DNA of 64,000 nt from Bdellovibrio sp. 22V (GCF_030169785.1 NZ_CP125854.1:2356001-2420000), one strand, 5' to 3'; numbered from the stretch's first letter, positions 3,845 to 63,678 are shown. The notes: generated by a model from the sequence alone, not told the origin. Numbers and translations: made by a program.

Positions 3845-5350
3845 TTACTTACGAGTGAATGTTCCCTGTACATTTCCATCTAAAAGATCAACCTTAAAGC
3901 TTGTGGCCTTTCCATTCGGACCAACACCGAAATGAACAAGAGAGTTTTTTCCGGCCATGGTGAACTCATTCACATGAGTCATCAGGAATGTGTCTTTTTC
4001 CCACGAGGTTAAAGGAAATTTCAATTTGCGAGGGCCTAATGTCAAAACAAGACCTTTTCCAGAAAACGTAATCCGCGCATCACCATAGTATTTGTTTTTA
4101 TAAATCCCCACGTAAGCTGAAGCCGGTTTGCTGGATTTAATTGGCTTTTTGCGATCATCAGCCACCGGCGGAATCGGTTTTGCGGCGTGAAGTTCGTGAT
4201 AATAAGAAAGCCAGTCTTGAGTTTGTTTTTTCTCGAACACTTCATCTAAGAAAGAGGCCGCCACAGCTTCAGGCAGGCCTACAGGCTCTCCGTTCGTTAA
4301 GACAACGATACCTATCTTAATGTCAGGTACAAGAACAACTGTGGTCGAAGCTCCAGCATCGAAAATTCCGGAATGGCTAAGACGAATTCTTTGCTGTGAA
4401 TCCGTCGTGCTGAAAAATCCTAAGGAGTAATAGTTTTTATGTTTCGCAGACGATTCGGTTTTATCTTCAATACGCGGAAGAAACATGTCATTTAAAACAT
4501 CCGCTTTGATGATCTCTCTATCGTCGTATTTTCCAGACGCCAAGATCATCCGCATCCATTGAGCGAGATCCTGAACGTTGGACGAAATGCCGCCTGCCGG
4601 AGACTGCGCATCAGGATTTCGTTTAAATGGCGACACCTGCCACGTGTCTTCGATTTTTTTATGGAGTGTCGCGCGATTTTTTTTCTCGATAAAATCCGCA
4701 TAGCGCGAGCTTGTCGACTTCATCCCCAATGGTGCGAAGACTTTCATTTGCGTGAGATCTTCCCATTTCTGACCAGACGCTTTTGCCGCCGCCTCCCCGC
4801 CTGCGGTCATACCAAAGTTAGAGTAAGCAAAAATACCTCGGAACTCGTGCAAGTTTTCGTAACGTAATTTTGAAAGCACATCAGCACGCTCGTAACCGAG
4901 AATTTCCAGAATATCGCCGGCGCCACCTGGCAAGCCGCTGCGATGCGAGTACATATCTTCAATCGTCACTTCCTGGCTGATCTTAGAATCCGCAAGTTTA
5001 AATGCCGGAAGATGTTTCTGAATAGGATCCTGCCATTTTAGTTTTCCTGCACTAACAGCAGCCGCGATAGCGGAAGCGCCGAGGGGTTTTGACATGGAGG
5101 CTAGTTGAAATACGGTTTCTGTGTCCACAGTCTCTGGCTTACCCAGTTCGCGCACCCCATAACCTTTGGCAAAGACAACTCGATCATTTTTAACAACAGC
5201 GATCGCCATGCCGGGAACGCCTGTTTTTGCCAGATAGTCTTGCGCAATAAGGTCTAATTTTCCTAAAGGAGAAAGCCGAGGCGTCGTTTCTGAAGGCTTC
5301 GTCGCACAAGCACCGATAAGAATTACGGAAAAAAGAAGGATGTATTTCAT
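3845..5350 (-). CDS. beta-lactamase-family serine hydrolase, lipoprotein
   Basis: A 501-residue lipoprotein (MKYILLFSVILIGACAT, lipobox IGAC) of the serine beta-lactamase/penicillin-binding-protein-like family that includes esterases and D-aminopeptidases. The catalytic SxxK is SMSKPLG near residue 86, and the second motif is YSNFG (YxN) near 179. The C-terminal ~100 residues, after a KPIPPVADDRKKPIKSSKP linker, form a separate beta-rich domain of the type often found behind this fold. The substrate is unknown: cell-wall peptide, ester or beta-lactam are all possible. It is divergent from the FKBP gene, with under 100 bases between the starts. Confidence 0.87.
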   Translation of the reverse strand: MKYILLFSVILIGACATKPSETTPRLSPLGKLDLIAQDYLAKTGVPGMAIAVVKNDRVVFAKGYGVRELGKPETVDTETVFQLASMSKPLGASAIAAAVSAGKLKWQDPIQKHLPAFKLADSKISQEVTIEDMYSHRSGLPGGAGDILEILGYERADVLSKLRYENLHEFRGIFAYSNFGMTAGGEAAAKASGQKWEDLTQMKVFAPLGMKSTSSRYADFIEKKNRATLHKKIEDTWQVSPFKRNPDAQSPAGGISSNVQDLAQWMRMILASGKYDDREIIKADVLNDMFLPRIEDKTESSAKHKNYYSLGFFSTTDSQQRIRLSHSGIFDAGASTTVVLVPDIKIGIVVLTNGEPVGLPEAVAASFLDEVFEKKQTQDWLSYYHELHAAKPIPPVADDRKKPIKSSKPASAYVGIYKNKYYGDARITFSGKGLVLTLGPRKLKFPLTSWEKDTFLMTHVNEFTMAGKNSLVHFGVGPNGKATSFKVDLLDGNVQGTFTRK

Positions 5351-58205: not shown

Positions 58206-59189
58206 GTGGCTGAGGCGAAGAAAGTTGCAAAAGACACTTATCTATTCCGTGACGGAGATGCTCCCGACGCCATGTACATCATCAAATCCGGCGCCTTTGC
58301 GGTCACCAAAACCAAAGGAACTTCCGAGGTTGTTTTAGCTGAAATCAATGCGGGTGCGATGGTGGGAGAGATGGCTCTCTTCGACAACAAACCGCGCAGT
58401 GCGAACGTCAAAGCGACTAAAGATTCCGAGGTGATCGCTCTCCCCTACGAATCCCTGACAAAGCAGATGGAACAACTGCCAGTGTGGGTGCGCGCGATTA
58501 TGAAAACGCTGAATGAAAATCTGCGCGAGGCGAACAAGAAAATTAAAATCCTTGAAAACTCCAACCCCGATGAAGAGCGTTTCCCGCCCCACATCGTGAA
58601 TAAGTATATTTCCATTTTGAATCTTGTCGGTCACAAATATGGCAAACAGGAAGAAGGCGGCGGCGTGAGTTTTTCTTCCGTTCTGCTGCGCAACTATACG
58701 ATTCAAATTTTCCAAGAAGCCACAAACAAAATGCAAAGCGTGGTCAATGCACTGACCGATCTTGAATACGTCGTGCAAGAAGATCGCGGGGACGGCACAC
58801 AAAAAATCATCAATCAAAAACCACAAGAACTTTTCCAGTTTGTGGATTGGTACAATGACTGGCTCTTTAAACAAGAAAAAGACCGCTTGCCTGCTTTGAC
58901 GGATGCGGAGGTCAAAGTTCTTAACGGCATTCTGCTTTTCGCCCGCCGAGTAGAACCAAATAATAAAGGTTTTAGAAAAGTAAATTTGAATGACGTACAA
59001 AACGAATCAATGAAAGAGACCGGCAACTTGATTCGCGCTGAAGACGTGAACCCTTTGATCGAGAAAAAATATCTCACGGAAAAGATCATGGATGAGCAAG
59101 GCGTATATATTATGATGGCCTTGGAAGACGTCGAGCCTTTGGCGCGTAACTGGACTATCGTGAATAATCTTAAACGTAAATTAAGATAG
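58206..59189 (+). CDS. cyclic-nucleotide-binding-domain protein
   Basis: A 327-residue cytoplasmic protein. The N-terminal ~110 residues are a cNMP-binding barrel, with YLFRDGDAPDAMYIIKSGAF and a phosphate-binding cassette-like GEMALFDNKPRSANVKA. A linker (IKILENSNPDEERFPPHIV) leads to ~200 residues with no known output domain (LTDLEYVVQEDRGDGTQKI, VEPNNKGFRKVNLNDVQNES); two winged-helix-like regions are possible. The start is GTG 58206, with AGAGAGGA seven bases upstream. It may couple cAMP or c-di-nucleotide level to an unknown partner. Confidence 0.87.
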   Translation: MAEAKKVAKDTYLFRDGDAPDAMYIIKSGAFAVTKTKGTSEVVLAEINAGAMVGEMALFDNKPRSANVKATKDSEVIALPYESLTKQMEQLPVWVRAIMKTLNENLREANKKIKILENSNPDEERFPPHIVNKYISILNLVGHKYGKQEEGGGVSFSSVLLRNYTIQIFQEATNKMQSVVNALTDLEYVVQEDRGDGTQKIINQKPQELFQFVDWYNDWLFKQEKDRLPALTDAEVKVLNGILLFARRVEPNNKGFRKVNLNDVQNESMKETGNLIRAEDVNPLIEKKYLTEKIMDEQGVYIMMALEDVEPLARNWTIVNNLKRKLR

Positions 59190-59198
59190 AGCTTATAT

Positions 59199-59228
59199 AA
59201 GCGTCTCACCCTGAGGCGCTTTCTTTCT
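59199..59228 (+). terminator. intrinsic terminator after the cyclic-nucleotide-binding gene
   Basis: AAGCGTCTC-ACCCT-GAGGCGCTT (59199-59221, one wobble) is followed by TCTTTCTTTT. Confidence 0.8.
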
Positions 59229-59277: not shown

Positions 59278-59305
59278 TCAAAATTTATTCAGATTCGTCC
59301 GATAA
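59278..59305 (+). promoter_or_regulatory. sigma-28 (FliA)-like promoter of the fibre gene
   Basis: TCAAAATT (59278-59285), a 12-base spacer and TCCGATAA (59298-59305) resemble the sigma-28 consensus TAAAGTTT-N11/12-GCCGATAA; the -10 matches seven of eight positions. The predicted start lies about 20 bases before the ATG at 59332, with GGAG at 59321 as ribosome site. Confidence 0.6.
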
Positions 59306-59331
59306 GTTCTACGGAACAGTGGAGAACAATA

Positions 59332-62300
59332 ATGAACGTAAAGGCACATCTCCTATTTAAATCCGGCATTGCGCTTTTTCTCTTTGCTTTGCACTCCATA
59401 TCTTACGCCGGAATAGGATTAACATATCAAGGTCGCATTCTAAAACCTGATGGAATGCCTTTGGATTCCAGCAATGTGCGCTTCACAATTGAAATTAAAA
59501 GTTACAATGATTGTCTGCTTTATCAAGAAACTCAAACCGCGAATCTTTCCACTTCGGGTGGTGTTTTTTCCTTAAATATCGGTTCAGCGCCGGCGCCAAA
59601 TATTCACAACTATGTCGGCTCTTCTTTGAGTTCGGTCTTTACCAATCGTGGCAGTTTCACGGGCTTGAGCGGCTGTACGGGCGGCACCTATGCACCGAAT
59701 GCGGATGACGATCGCAAAATCGTTGTCAGCTTTGAAGATTTGACTTTACCAACGCCGACTTTAGAAACAATTCCTTCGCAAACAATTTCTTACGTGCCGT
59801 TTGCGATCGAGAGTTATCAGATCTCAGGTTTCACTTCACAAAACCTTTTGCGTGTCAGCGATGGCACCATCTCGCCAATGACTGTGGCGAACTACAACGA
59901 GCTGATGAATTTGATTGCGGGTTCATCGACTCAGTATGTGACGAGCGCCACGAACGGTGTTACTTCCGTCGCTTTCAGCCCTGCTGATTTCACGGGCGGC
60001 ACAATCACTTCCACAGGTGCCGTCGCGTTGAAAGATGTCACAACGGCTGCAACGAAAGGAACGGCGACAAAAGTTCCGCAAATTACTTTCGACAGTAAAG
60101 GCCGTATCACTTCCGTCACGGAGGTCGATATTTCTGGAATCGGCGCCAGTGGGAATGCTGGCGGAGATCTTACAGGAACTTATCCGAATCCGACGCTCAA
60201 CGCCTTAGCTGTGGATGAAGGAAAGCTTGCTGCTGACGCCGTGACCTCGGCAAAAATCAAAGATGGTGAAATCGTGAACGCCGACATCTCGGCAACAGCG
60301 GCTATCGCAGATACAAAACTTGCGACAATTTCCACAGCGGGAAAAGTGGCCAACTCCGCCACCAGCGGAACGGCCGCCAACACTCCCGACACGTTGGTTT
60401 TAAGAGATTCCAGCGGTGATTTCGCCGCACGAAATATTTCGGCGAATCAAATCAATTCCAACTCGACTTACGCTACAGATCTGTACATTCGTAACGCCGG
60501 AAACAACACAGTGAAGTTCAATCTGGACCCTGCGGCGAATGCGAATTTCTCTGTCGTGTGGCCGACGAACACAAGCAGCGCCGGCAAGGTTTTGCAAAAC
60601 GACGGAAACGGCGTTCTTTCTTGGGTGGCCGCAAGTGCGGGCTCGGTCACGTCTGTTACAGCAGGAACCGGATTGAATGTGGGCGCAGGCCCGGGTGGCA
60701 CGATCACATCGATTGGCACATTGAATGTGAACGTGGGTACGAGCGCGAATCAAATTCTTCAATTGAATGGCTCATCACAAATCCCTGCGGTTGATGGAAG
60801 TCTTTTAACAAATTTAACGCCGACAAATCTCGGGGCCGCCGTACCTATCAATAAAGGTGGTACAGGGCAAACGACAGCGACTGCAGCTTTCGATGCTTTG
60901 AGTCCTCTGACGAGCAAAGGCGATTTGGTTACAAGAGATGGCACAAACAACGTTCGTTTGCCCGTGGGCGCGGATTTTAAATACCTGCGCGCGAACTCTG
61001 CAGCGGCGACGGGCTTAGAATACGGCGATGTTTCCGCAACGGAACTCGCGTCGCTGAGTTCGACAGGCATCGTGAAAAGAACTGGCGCTGCCGCTTATAC
61101 GACTTTGGGTGTGACGGCTCCTTTGATTGATACAGGTACGAATATTGGCTTGAGTATCGGCACAGGCCTGACAACAAGCGGAGGCAACCTTGTTGTGAAT
61201 GTCGGCACTGGCGCCAATCAAATTCCTCAACTGGATGGCAGCGGTAAGTTGAACTCTTCCGTTCTGCCGAGCGGGACATCGACGCAATGGACGACAACGG
61301 GTTCGCATATTTACTACAATACGGGCAATGTCGGCATTGGTACGACAAATCCTGGAGCAAAGTTGCATGTTAACGGCTCTGCCGCATTTGAAAATAACAC
61401 GGCAACATCCGCGGGACCGTCTTTCTCGTTCTGGAAAAATCGAAACTACACAGCGACACAGAACAACGACGAGCTTGGTTACATTTCTTTCTATGGACAT
61501 GACGGTACGACCTCACAGCGTTCCGCATTCATTCTGTCTCGTGGTGAAGGCGCGCCGGCGGCGGGTTCGGTTCCTGCGAATATCGGGTTCTTTACGACAT
61601 CTCCTGCAGGCACAGACAGCACAGAAAAAATGTTGATTACAGCGGCTGGTAACGTTGGTATCGGAACTTCTACTCCGACTGAAAAACTGGAAGTCGCAGG
61701 AAAAGTGAAAGCGACACAGCTTTGTATCGGTGCGGACTGCCGTGCCACATGGCCTGCGGGCGCGGGCGGTGACTTCCTCGCGAACGGCACTGTGGCCATG
61801 ACTGGGAACTTCAGAACAGGCGGCTTTTGGCTTTCCAACGATGGCGACAGCGAGGGGGCTTGGATCGCTACCGACGGAAGAGTCGGCATCGGCACCAATA
61901 CACCTGCCACGAAATTACATGTCAATGGCGATGCGATTATCGGCAATGGCAATACCACGTTCCAAGGCGCTAACTACATCCTTGGAAGCAGCAACACCGT
62001 AACGAACTCTAGCGGCGGAAATGCTTCTGGCAACTATATCGTTGGTGGAAGCAATAACATCACAACATCTCTTGCGAACTTCTCGTATAACTTATCCGTC
62101 TTCGGAAGTTCCAATACCGTCAACAATAACGCTGGAAACGCGATTGTCCTTGGTTATGGCAATACCGTCTCAGCTTCAAACTCCATCTCCATCGGCAGAA
62201 GCATTACGAACAGTATTGCCTCAAGTATGATGATCGGTGTTTCGAACACAAATAAAATCACCATGCTTTCGGACGGCAAAGTCGGCTTTAAGACAGAAAC

Positions 62301-63651
62301 TCCGGCATACGAAGTGGATGTCAACGGCACGCTCAACACCACGACTTTGCGAATTGGCGGCACGGTATTTAATCCCGGCGCGTACGTGGATACTTCGACA
62401 AATCAAACTACAATCGCGGGAAATAAAACTTTCACGGGAACTCTGACTGCAGGCGGAGCCGGCACAGGCCTGTCTGTGACAAACAATATGACCGTCGGTG
62501 GAATTGCGACGGCGGCTGGTTTTGCGGCAAGCAGCTTGGGTACGGCAAGCTCCCCTGTATTCACTTTCTCTGGCGATCCGAATACGGGTTTGTACAGTTC
62601 TGCTGCAGACACCCTCGACGTCTCCGTTGCAGGATCCAACAGAATGCAAATATCTTCGACAGGGAACGTAGGGTTCTCTACAACCACGACCACCGGCGCC
62701 CGGGTCACAGTGAACTCCAGCGGGCAAAGCGGACCAGGAACTGCCAGCGGTACCAGCTTGCGTTTAGGACTTTCAACAGCCCTTGATTTCGGTGAATACG
62801 CCGGCGGCAATACTTGGATCCAAGCTTCCGATCGAACCACCTTCACAACGAAAAAAAATATTTCCCTAAATCCCGATGGCGGAAACGTTGCTATCGGCAA
62901 CACGAATCCGACATACAAGCTAGATATCGGTGCGAATACTGATACAAACAACACCGTCGCCGTGCGCGCGTCATCCGTGACCGCCATGGAACTTATGAAT
63001 TCCACATTCGGCGGCCTGTGGATGGGAGTGAATTTTTCCGGTGCCGCCGTGAACGGGATTCCAGCCAATGGAATAGGGTTTTCTGTCGGCAACAATAATA
63101 TTATTTTCGCAACGGGCACGACTCCTGCCGAGCGTATGCGTATCTCTAACGTCGGAAATGTCGGGATCGGAACGATAAATCCATCGGAAAAATTGGAAGT
63201 TGCAGGAAATGTCAAAGCGACGGAATTTCTGTATACTTCGGATGCGCGTTTGAAAAAAGACGTTGTGACTTTGCCTGATGCTCTGGAAAAAGCGTTGCAA
63301 CTTCGCGGCGTCAACTTCACTTGGAAAGCCGACAATAAGAAAACTGTCGGTTTTATCGCCCAGGAAGTCGAACAAGTGTATCCAGAGCTTGTGCGCACAG
63401 ATGCAAAATCAGGATACAAAGCCGTGCAATATGGAAATATCGTGGCGGTGCTTGTTGAAGCGCTTAAACAGGAACACCGTGAGCGCGTCGAAAACCAAAA
63501 TCTTTGCCAAGCGGAAGTGAAAAACATTTCCCGCCAAATCGCGAGCGCGCAATCCGCAACGGAAGAACGTGTTCGGGTTTTAGAAAAAGAAAATCAAGAA
63601 CTCAAAGCGCGTCTTGAAAGACTCGAAAAAATCATTCTTCAGGGAAAATAA
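59332..63651 (+). CDS. trimeric fibre/adhesin with C-terminal intramolecular chaperone (MAT-type)
   Basis: A 1,439-residue exported protein (MNVKAHLLFKSGIALFLFALHSISYA signal, region 1-26). An N-terminal domain begins IGLTYQGRILKPDG. Long tail-fibre-like repeats follow (KGGTGQTTATAAFDALS, GNVGIGTTNPGAKLHVNG, GNVGIGTSTPTEKLEVAG and two similar copies), plus a head-like asparagine/serine-rich segment (GNTVSASNSISIGRSI). The C-terminus is an endosialidase-type (S74) chaperone: Ser1303-Asp1304 begins SDARLKKDVVTLPDAL, with GFIAQEVEQVYPELV, then a coiled coil (LEKENQELKARLERLEK). In S74 proteins the chain is cut at that Ser after trimer folding. The layout fits the mosaic adhesive trimers of Bdellovibrio, which recognise prey surfaces. 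Confidence 0.9.
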   Translation: MNVKAHLLFKSGIALFLFALHSISYAGIGLTYQGRILKPDGMPLDSSNVRFTIEIKSYNDCLLYQETQTANLSTSGGVFSLNIGSAPAPNIHNYVGSSLSSVFTNRGSFTGLSGCTGGTYAPNADDDRKIVVSFEDLTLPTPTLETIPSQTISYVPFAIESYQISGFTSQNLLRVSDGTISPMTVANYNELMNLIAGSSTQYVTSATNGVTSVAFSPADFTGGTITSTGAVALKDVTTAATKGTATKVPQITFDSKGRITSVTEVDISGIGASGNAGGDLTGTYPNPTLNALAVDEGKLAADAVTSAKIKDGEIVNADISATAAIADTKLATISTAGKVANSATSGTAANTPDTLVLRDSSGDFAARNISANQINSNSTYATDLYIRNAGNNTVKFNLDPAANANFSVVWPTNTSSAGKVLQNDGNGVLSWVAASAGSVTSVTAGTGLNVGAGPGGTITSIGTLNVNVGTSANQILQLNGSSQIPAVDGSLLTNLTPTNLGAAVPINKGGTGQTTATAAFDALSPLTSKGDLVTRDGTNNVRLPVGADFKYLRANSAAATGLEYGDVSATELASLSSTGIVKRTGAAAYTTLGVTAPLIDTGTNIGLSIGTGLTTSGGNLVVNVGTGANQIPQLDGSGKLNSSVLPSGTSTQWTTTGSHIYYNTGNVGIGTTNPGAKLHVNGSAAFENNTATSAGPSFSFWKNRNYTATQNNDELGYISFYGHDGTTSQRSAFILSRGEGAPAAGSVPANIGFFTTSPAGTDSTEKMLITAAGNVGIGTSTPTEKLEVAGKVKATQLCIGADCRATWPAGAGGDFLANGTVAMTGNFRTGGFWLSNDGDSEGAWIATDGRVGIGTNTPATKLHVNGDAIIGNGNTTFQGANYILGSSNTVTNSSGGNASGNYIVGGSNNITTSLANFSYNLSVFGSSNTVNNNAGNAIVLGYGNTVSASNSISIGRSITNSIASSMMIGVSNTNKITMLSDGKVGFKTETPAYEVDVNGTLNTTTLRIGGTVFNPGAYVDTSTNQTTIAGNKTFTGTLTAGGAGTGLSVTNNMTVGGIATAAGFAASSLGTASSPVFTFSGDPNTGLYSSAADTLDVSVAGSNRMQISSTGNVGFSTTTTTGARVTVNSSGQSGPGTASGTSLRLGLSTALDFGEYAGGNTWIQASDRTTFTTKKNISLNPDGGNVAIGNTNPTYKLDIGANTDTNNTVAVRASSVTAMELMNSTFGGLWMGVNFSGAAVNGIPANGIGFSVGNNNIIFATGTTPAERMRISNVGNVGIGTINPSEKLEVAGNVKATEFLYTSDARLKKDVVTLPDALEKALQLRGVNFTWKADNKKTVGFIAQEVEQVYPELVRTDAKSGYKAVQYGNIVAVLVEALKQEHRERVENQNLCQAEVKNISRQIASAQSATEERVRVLEKENQELKARLERLEKIILQGK

Positions 63652-63678
63652 AAAAGGGAGCTGACGCTCCCCGCTTTT
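63652..63678. terminator. bidirectional intrinsic terminator
   Basis: GGGAGC-TGAC-GCTCCC (63656-63671) is flanked by A and T tracts. It separates the convergent fibre and pyruvate kinase genes and fits both directions. Confidence 0.92.

Follow-up and report, generated by a model that had tools for sequence, protein, structure and literature searches.

A mosaic adhesive trimer gene behind a FliA-type promoter in Bdellovibrio sp. 22V, with outer blocks unlike those of its syntenic counterpart in a sister species

What does a large fibre gene, standing at 59332-63651 on the plus strand of a 64,000-nucleotide stretch of Bdellovibrio sp. 22V (GCF_030169785.1, NZ_CP125854.1:2356001-2420000; the whole stretch is hereafter the window), do for this predator? 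We hypothesize, with a probability of about 85%, that it encodes a secreted fibre of the S74 subgroup of the mosaic adhesive trimers (MATs), which would be driven by FliA in the attack phase, fold as a trimer with the help of its S74 domain and carry a variable tip that binds prey, and whose locus would have been re-aimed by recombination. The open reading frame (ORF) starts with ATG and specifies 1439 amino acids (aa); its coordinates, residue numbers and signal-peptide-like start had been given correctly in a first-pass annotation made from the sequence alone. The parts of the gene are as follows.

59332-63651, plus strand: MAT fibre gene, 1439 aa, an ORF present in the sequence
59332-59409, plus strand: putative signal peptide, residues 1-26, recognized by eye (basic start, hydrophobic stretch, SYA/G)
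59374-59841, plus strand: MAT N-terminal domain, residues 15-170 (NF053851 Bdello_MAT_N, 101.6 bits, cut-off 60)
59842-61338, plus strand: shaft, residues 171-669, kept in the sister species (residues 21-669 are 87% identical to L217)
61339-61647, plus strand: variable block 1 (residues 670-772; 22% identity to L217)
61852-62331, plus strand: variable block 2, residues 841-1000, Asn/Ser/Thr/Gly-rich repeats
62353-62610, plus strand: conserved block, residues 1008-1093, 88% identical to the sister gene
62611-63153, plus strand: variable block 3, residues 1094-1274, directly preceding the S74 domain, 27% identical to the sister gene
63238-63396, plus strand: Peptidase_S74 chaperone/protease, residues 1303-1355, with the SDxxxK motif (PF13884 and alignment)
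63430-63645, plus strand: predicted C-terminal coiled coil, approximately residues 1367-1438 (one long helix in an AF2 model, local pLDDT up to 98)

By its domains, the gene is a further member of the known MAT family and of its S74 subgroup (PMC10769870), and the MAT build that the first-pass annotation had recognized is backed by curated models and published data. The NCBIfam model matches above its cut-off a conserved domain right after the putative signal peptide (junction MNVKAHLLFKSGIALFLFALHSISYA/GIGLTYQG, by eye), PF13884 starts at residue 1303 with S1303, D1304 and K1308 in place, and the block identities to the sister gene and block matches to other MATs agree with the conserved base and exchanged tip of a mosaic. 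Like Bd3182-type S74-subgroup MATs, the protein combines a putative signal peptide, an N-domain (~130 aa in that type), a long shaft and a terminal S74 domain with SDxxxK, together with a putative beta-helix tip bearing candidate capping-loop motifs, but it is longer (1439 aa) and its N-domain is divergent. At the sequence level, four solved MAT tips (8oml, 8ond, 8on4 and 8ol4) are hit by residues 706-799; the C-terminal part hits the same four and, in addition, 8ojn, MyRF and the long tail fibre of a phage. Six VGIGTxxPxxKLxV-type motifs, found by regular expression in sequence only, lie within the segments that match solved tips; the reference motif for the beta-helix capping loop is V-G-G/N-pi-X-X-P-X-X-X-L.

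The window genome (3.6 Mb, one contig) holds 26 MAT N-domains and 15 S74 domains, and 21 MATs, 13 of them with S74, have been reported for HD100 (PMC10769870). MATs were present in all 24 Bdellovibrio genomes searched, with 3 to 30 in each, and in none of the 14 well-known control genomes searched. Outside its own locus, the nearest relative of the window gene that we found is L190 (genome G012), which is 44% identical in the N-domain.

The S74 domain is complete. Peptidase_S74 scored 62 bits against a cut-off of 22 and was covered over its full model (1-58) from residue 1303, in line with the earlier proposal that Ser1303-Asp1304 opens a complete intramolecular chaperone domain. The motif reads SDARLK (S1303-K1308), and S1303, D1304, R1306 and K1308 occupy invariant columns in an alignment of the S74 domains of the window genome and the sister gene. 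The published MAT Bd3182 cleaves itself at the S74 serine (PMC10769870), and self-cleavage directly before S1303 is predicted for the window protein. We also ran AF2 on residues 1262-1439 and 841-1000 as single sequences and single chains, obtaining pLDDT values of 58.6 and 59.5, and a fold search with the model of the second segment returned nothing at E below 0.8. In the otherwise poor model of the C-terminal segment, a long helix is predicted at ~1367-1438, which is consistent with the C-terminal coiled coil claimed earlier; both models being poor, the trimer stays putative.

An indication that the tip may have changed its target comes from the syntenic MAT gene of a sister species (genome G033, L217:3304-7566, 1420 aa). 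Locus and promoter boxes are common to the two genes, and so are the shaft, at 87% identity, and the S74 region, at 79%; their three outer blocks, by contrast, are 22-27% identical. Along the window protein, identity is 87% over residues 21-669, 22% over 670-772, 73% over 773-824, 22% over 825-1007, 88% over 1008-1093, 27% over 1094-1274 and 79% over 1275-1439. Block 841-1000 shares ~22% of its residues with the syntenic gene but 52-61% with non-syntenic MATs in six other Bdellovibrio genomes, where the similar block stands directly before S74; compared with those MATs, the window protein has ~290 more residues between block 2 and S74. Nothing closely similar to block 1 or block 3 turned up in the loci fetched, and none of the three variable blocks belonged to a family in Pfam.

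Caulton et al. inferred exchange of outer blocks with the base kept from paralogues within HD100 (PMC10769870). What is new here is that the block differences are seen between species at one locus, compared with paralogues within HD100. Judging from the identity patterns, the arrangement fits an exchange of outer blocks in which base and chaperone were kept, and outer blocks swapped on the same shaft look like a fibre re-aimed in nature. Fast divergence of the surface blocks alone could still be the alternative to exchange in the case of blocks 1 and 3. The first-pass annotation had proposed that the fibre has its own receptor specificity, which stood in so far as it fits the block differences between the sister species; any ligand stays putative.

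Within the fibre gene there is also a pair of near-repeats, at window positions 61654-61716 (VGIGTSTPTEKLEVAGKVKAT) and 63160-63222 (VGIGTINPSEKLEVAGNVKAT), which are possible candidate sites for recombination between blocks. Block borders lay within 18 residues of capping-loop motifs in 4/6 cases, but with p at ~0.07-0.09 we claim no association.

When would the fibre be made? Two elements lie upstream of the start codon.

59278-59304, plus strand: FliA (sigma-28) type promoter, TCAAA-N16-CCGATA, with the spacing of the attack-phase motif; boxes kept at the sister locus
59321-59326, plus strand: Shine-Dalgarno-like GGAGAA, kept in the sister gene (sequence and alignment with L217)

The attack-phase motif TTAAG-N16-CCGATA, ascribed to FliA, marks 92 of the 140 attack-phase promoters that were mapped, and its targets include cell-surface anchor genes (PMC3627812); an E. 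coli system served to test FliA control of the TAD operon, and FliA proved impossible to delete (PMC5430801). The first-pass annotation had placed a FliA-type promoter, TCAAAATT-N12-TCCGATAA, at 59278-59305, and the site is indeed there, with the published attack-phase spacing: the -10 box and spacing are exact, and 3/5 positions agree in a weak -35 (TCAAA vs TTAAG). Such a box could be a chance match, with another sigma factor or constitutive expression behind the gene. It is the sole exact match in the window, but with one mismatch there are 5 matches against 4.9 expected from shuffles, and across the whole genome TWAA-N16-CCGATA occurs 22 times against 14 in a reversed control, weakly above it; since these rates are near those of the controls, box matching alone is not evidence. 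It is conservation that makes the box credible: at the sister locus TTCAAAA, CCGATAAGTTCT and GGAGAAC are kept, as is the spacing of the two boxes, despite a changed spacer. A sigma-70-like scan found no site in the intergenic region, and the upstream regions of MAT genes as a group recover TTAA at FliA spacing from CCGATAAG, so that we consider a chance box improbable.

The FliA sigma factor gene is present in the window genome (281.8 bits). Since FliA is the published attack-phase regulator, it is a good inference that it drives attack-phase expression of the window gene; the expression claimed earlier holds to this extent, and the transcript start remains a prediction. Sigma-28 promoters in general start transcripts ~7-9 nt past the -10 box, and the predicted start here would be at ~59311-59314.

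The -10 element of MAT genes points to a wider pattern. We collected 65 MAT upstream regions, 26 from the window genome and 39 from the top-scoring MATs of four other Bdellovibrio genomes. With at most one mismatch, CCGATAAG stops precisely 8 nt short of the chosen ATG in 32/65 of these regions, which, MATs being paralogues, are not independent promoters, and in 0.03% of shuffles; at least 4 further MATs (L230, L231, L246, L255) would fit if translation really begins at an in-frame ATG slightly further upstream. An alignment of these MAT regions brings out TTAA where FliA spacing places the -35 box; a similar signal is seen in other genes bearing the pattern. Upstream of MAT and other genes (e.g., L070, L071, L226 and L261), the 24 Bdellovibrio genomes contain 340 exact copies of CCGATAAG-N6-ATG, against 19 of a reversed control; in three genomes the N6 gap was found 16-22 times, compared with ~2-3 for each other gap. 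Outside the genus, counts were mostly lower, at 0-11 per genome.

A start 7-9 nt past such a box would fall on or next to the ATG, giving a leaderless or nearly leaderless mRNA. The window gene is an exception to this placement and, compared with many MAT genes, has a 5' leader, with 27 nt and a Shine-Dalgarno sequence between box and start codon. In the seven flagellin-domain genes of the window genome, CCGATAAG is absent from that position; the majority have leaders with a Shine-Dalgarno-like element. We lean slightly towards the view that a genus-wide FliA -10 element, ending 8 nt before the ATG of MAT and many other genes, yields leaderless attack-phase mRNAs, and that genes with a leader and Shine-Dalgarno sequence (the window gene and the flagellins among them) may form a second translational class. 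Judging by titles and abstracts, a literature search that combined Bdellovibrio with leaderless yielded no paper on the subject, and the published start map (PMC3627812) may hold the answer.

Is the fibre a cellular adhesin at all, or the tail fibre of a prophage or phage-derived particle? Phage fibres often carry S74 domains; the protein is matched by PHROGs tail-fibre profiles, and its residues 1262-1439 by 742 phage records. Phage S74 fibres and endosialidases (K1F, the T5 L-shaped fibre) and the eukaryotic MyRF have the S74 intramolecular chaperone/protease in common with the window protein; unlike the phage fibres, the window gene lies outside a phage gene cluster and encodes a putative signal peptide and a MAT N-domain, a domain present in all 24 Bdellovibrio genomes searched. 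Variable block 2 had no phage match, and the earlier statement that no phage genes surround the locus is borne out within the range of a Pfam scan of 25 neighbouring proteins, which showed no phage structural gene. Moreover, this is a single gene with a FliA-type promoter between two terminator-like hairpins.

59199-59221, plus strand: terminator-like hairpin closing the upstream cyclic-nucleotide-binding (cNMP-binding) gene, 10-pair stem with a T-rich tail, 10 nt past the stop at 59189
63656-63671, plus strand: terminator-like hairpin shared with the convergent pyruvate kinase gene, found on both strands

In view of the putative signal peptide, the MAT N-domain, the lack of phage structural genes among the 25 neighbours scanned and the FliA-type promoter, we rejected a prophage origin, which we regard as highly improbable. 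With hairpins on both sides, the MAT gene is probably transcribed as a single unit, alone; terminator-like hairpins are somewhat above the shuffled rate in our scan and are hence supporting evidence only.

The neighbourhood also bears on when the gene arrived. Upstream lies a cNMP-binding domain gene ending at 59189, preceded by CoA-transferase subunits and a thiolase; the downstream convergent gene was read from the sequence as the C-terminal end of a pyruvate kinase, and further off, among other housekeeping genes, are IMPDH, GMP synthase and a Na/H exchanger. All 24 Bdellovibrio genomes carry the cNMP-binding gene, and in 18 of these it is directly followed by pyruvate kinase, with no space for a MAT. 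Among the genomes resolved (all but G012 and G009), the only other MAT at this locus is that of G033, whose cNMP-binding protein is also the closest to that of the window (95%). A MAT gene between the cNMP-binding gene and pyruvate kinase, common among the genomes resolved only to the window genome and its closest relative, is a finding new here, and on the simplest reading the MAT would have been gained in their common ancestor. In G005 and G034 a histidine kinase gene occupies the gap (L218:2399-3808 and L219:8857-10206), which has thus accepted different genes. Elsewhere in the window, 3845-5350 encodes a beta-lactamase-family serine hydrolase (PF00144) with a DUF3471 domain.

In the mechanism that we propose, FliA would transcribe the MAT gene in the attack phase, and three chains would fold on the S74 chaperone, which would then cut itself off before S1303 to leave an exposed tip ending at residue 1302. 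The N-domain would hold the fibre on the predator surface, the variable blocks would bind prey surface glycans, and recombination of the outer blocks would have re-aimed the locus. For the window fibre, trimerisation, loss of S74 and presentation to prey are proposed by analogy with the MAT family, in which the C-terminally tagged members tested were all on the attack-phase surface, tips form trimers, and Bd2439 is the only member with a demonstrated prey glycan (PMC10769870).

The main rival to prey recognition is a fibre that serves mainly at a later step, for instance by keeping hold of the entry vesicle, by closing the porthole again or inside the bdelloplast. Published work has shown that Bd2133, Bd2439 and Bd3182 relocate to the vesicle or bdelloplast and that the Bd3182 focus requires S74 cleavage. 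However, the attack-phase surface location of all the tagged MATs speaks for an earlier role, and divergence of the outer blocks with a kept shaft suits a change of ligand; we consider a mainly later role unlikely, though clearly less so than a chance promoter box.

Several points weigh against an attack-phase prey-recognition fibre. Single MAT deletions cause a small predation defect or none (PMC10769870); the window protein's N-domain ranks 25th of 26 by score (107.7 bits vs up to 249); the -35 element is weak, as described above; and the AF2 models, obtained from single sequences, are poor.

How a predator recognizes many kinds of prey is a long-standing question, to which MAT fibres are the leading answer. 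If transcripts do start as the 8-nt placement suggests, part of the attack-phase programme would use leaderless mRNA, which would bear on the control of protein synthesis at prey encounter and on Bdellovibrio expression tools. Finally, the sister pair offers the same promoter, shaft, S74 domain and place but different outer blocks, so that differences in prey binding could be mapped to defined segments.

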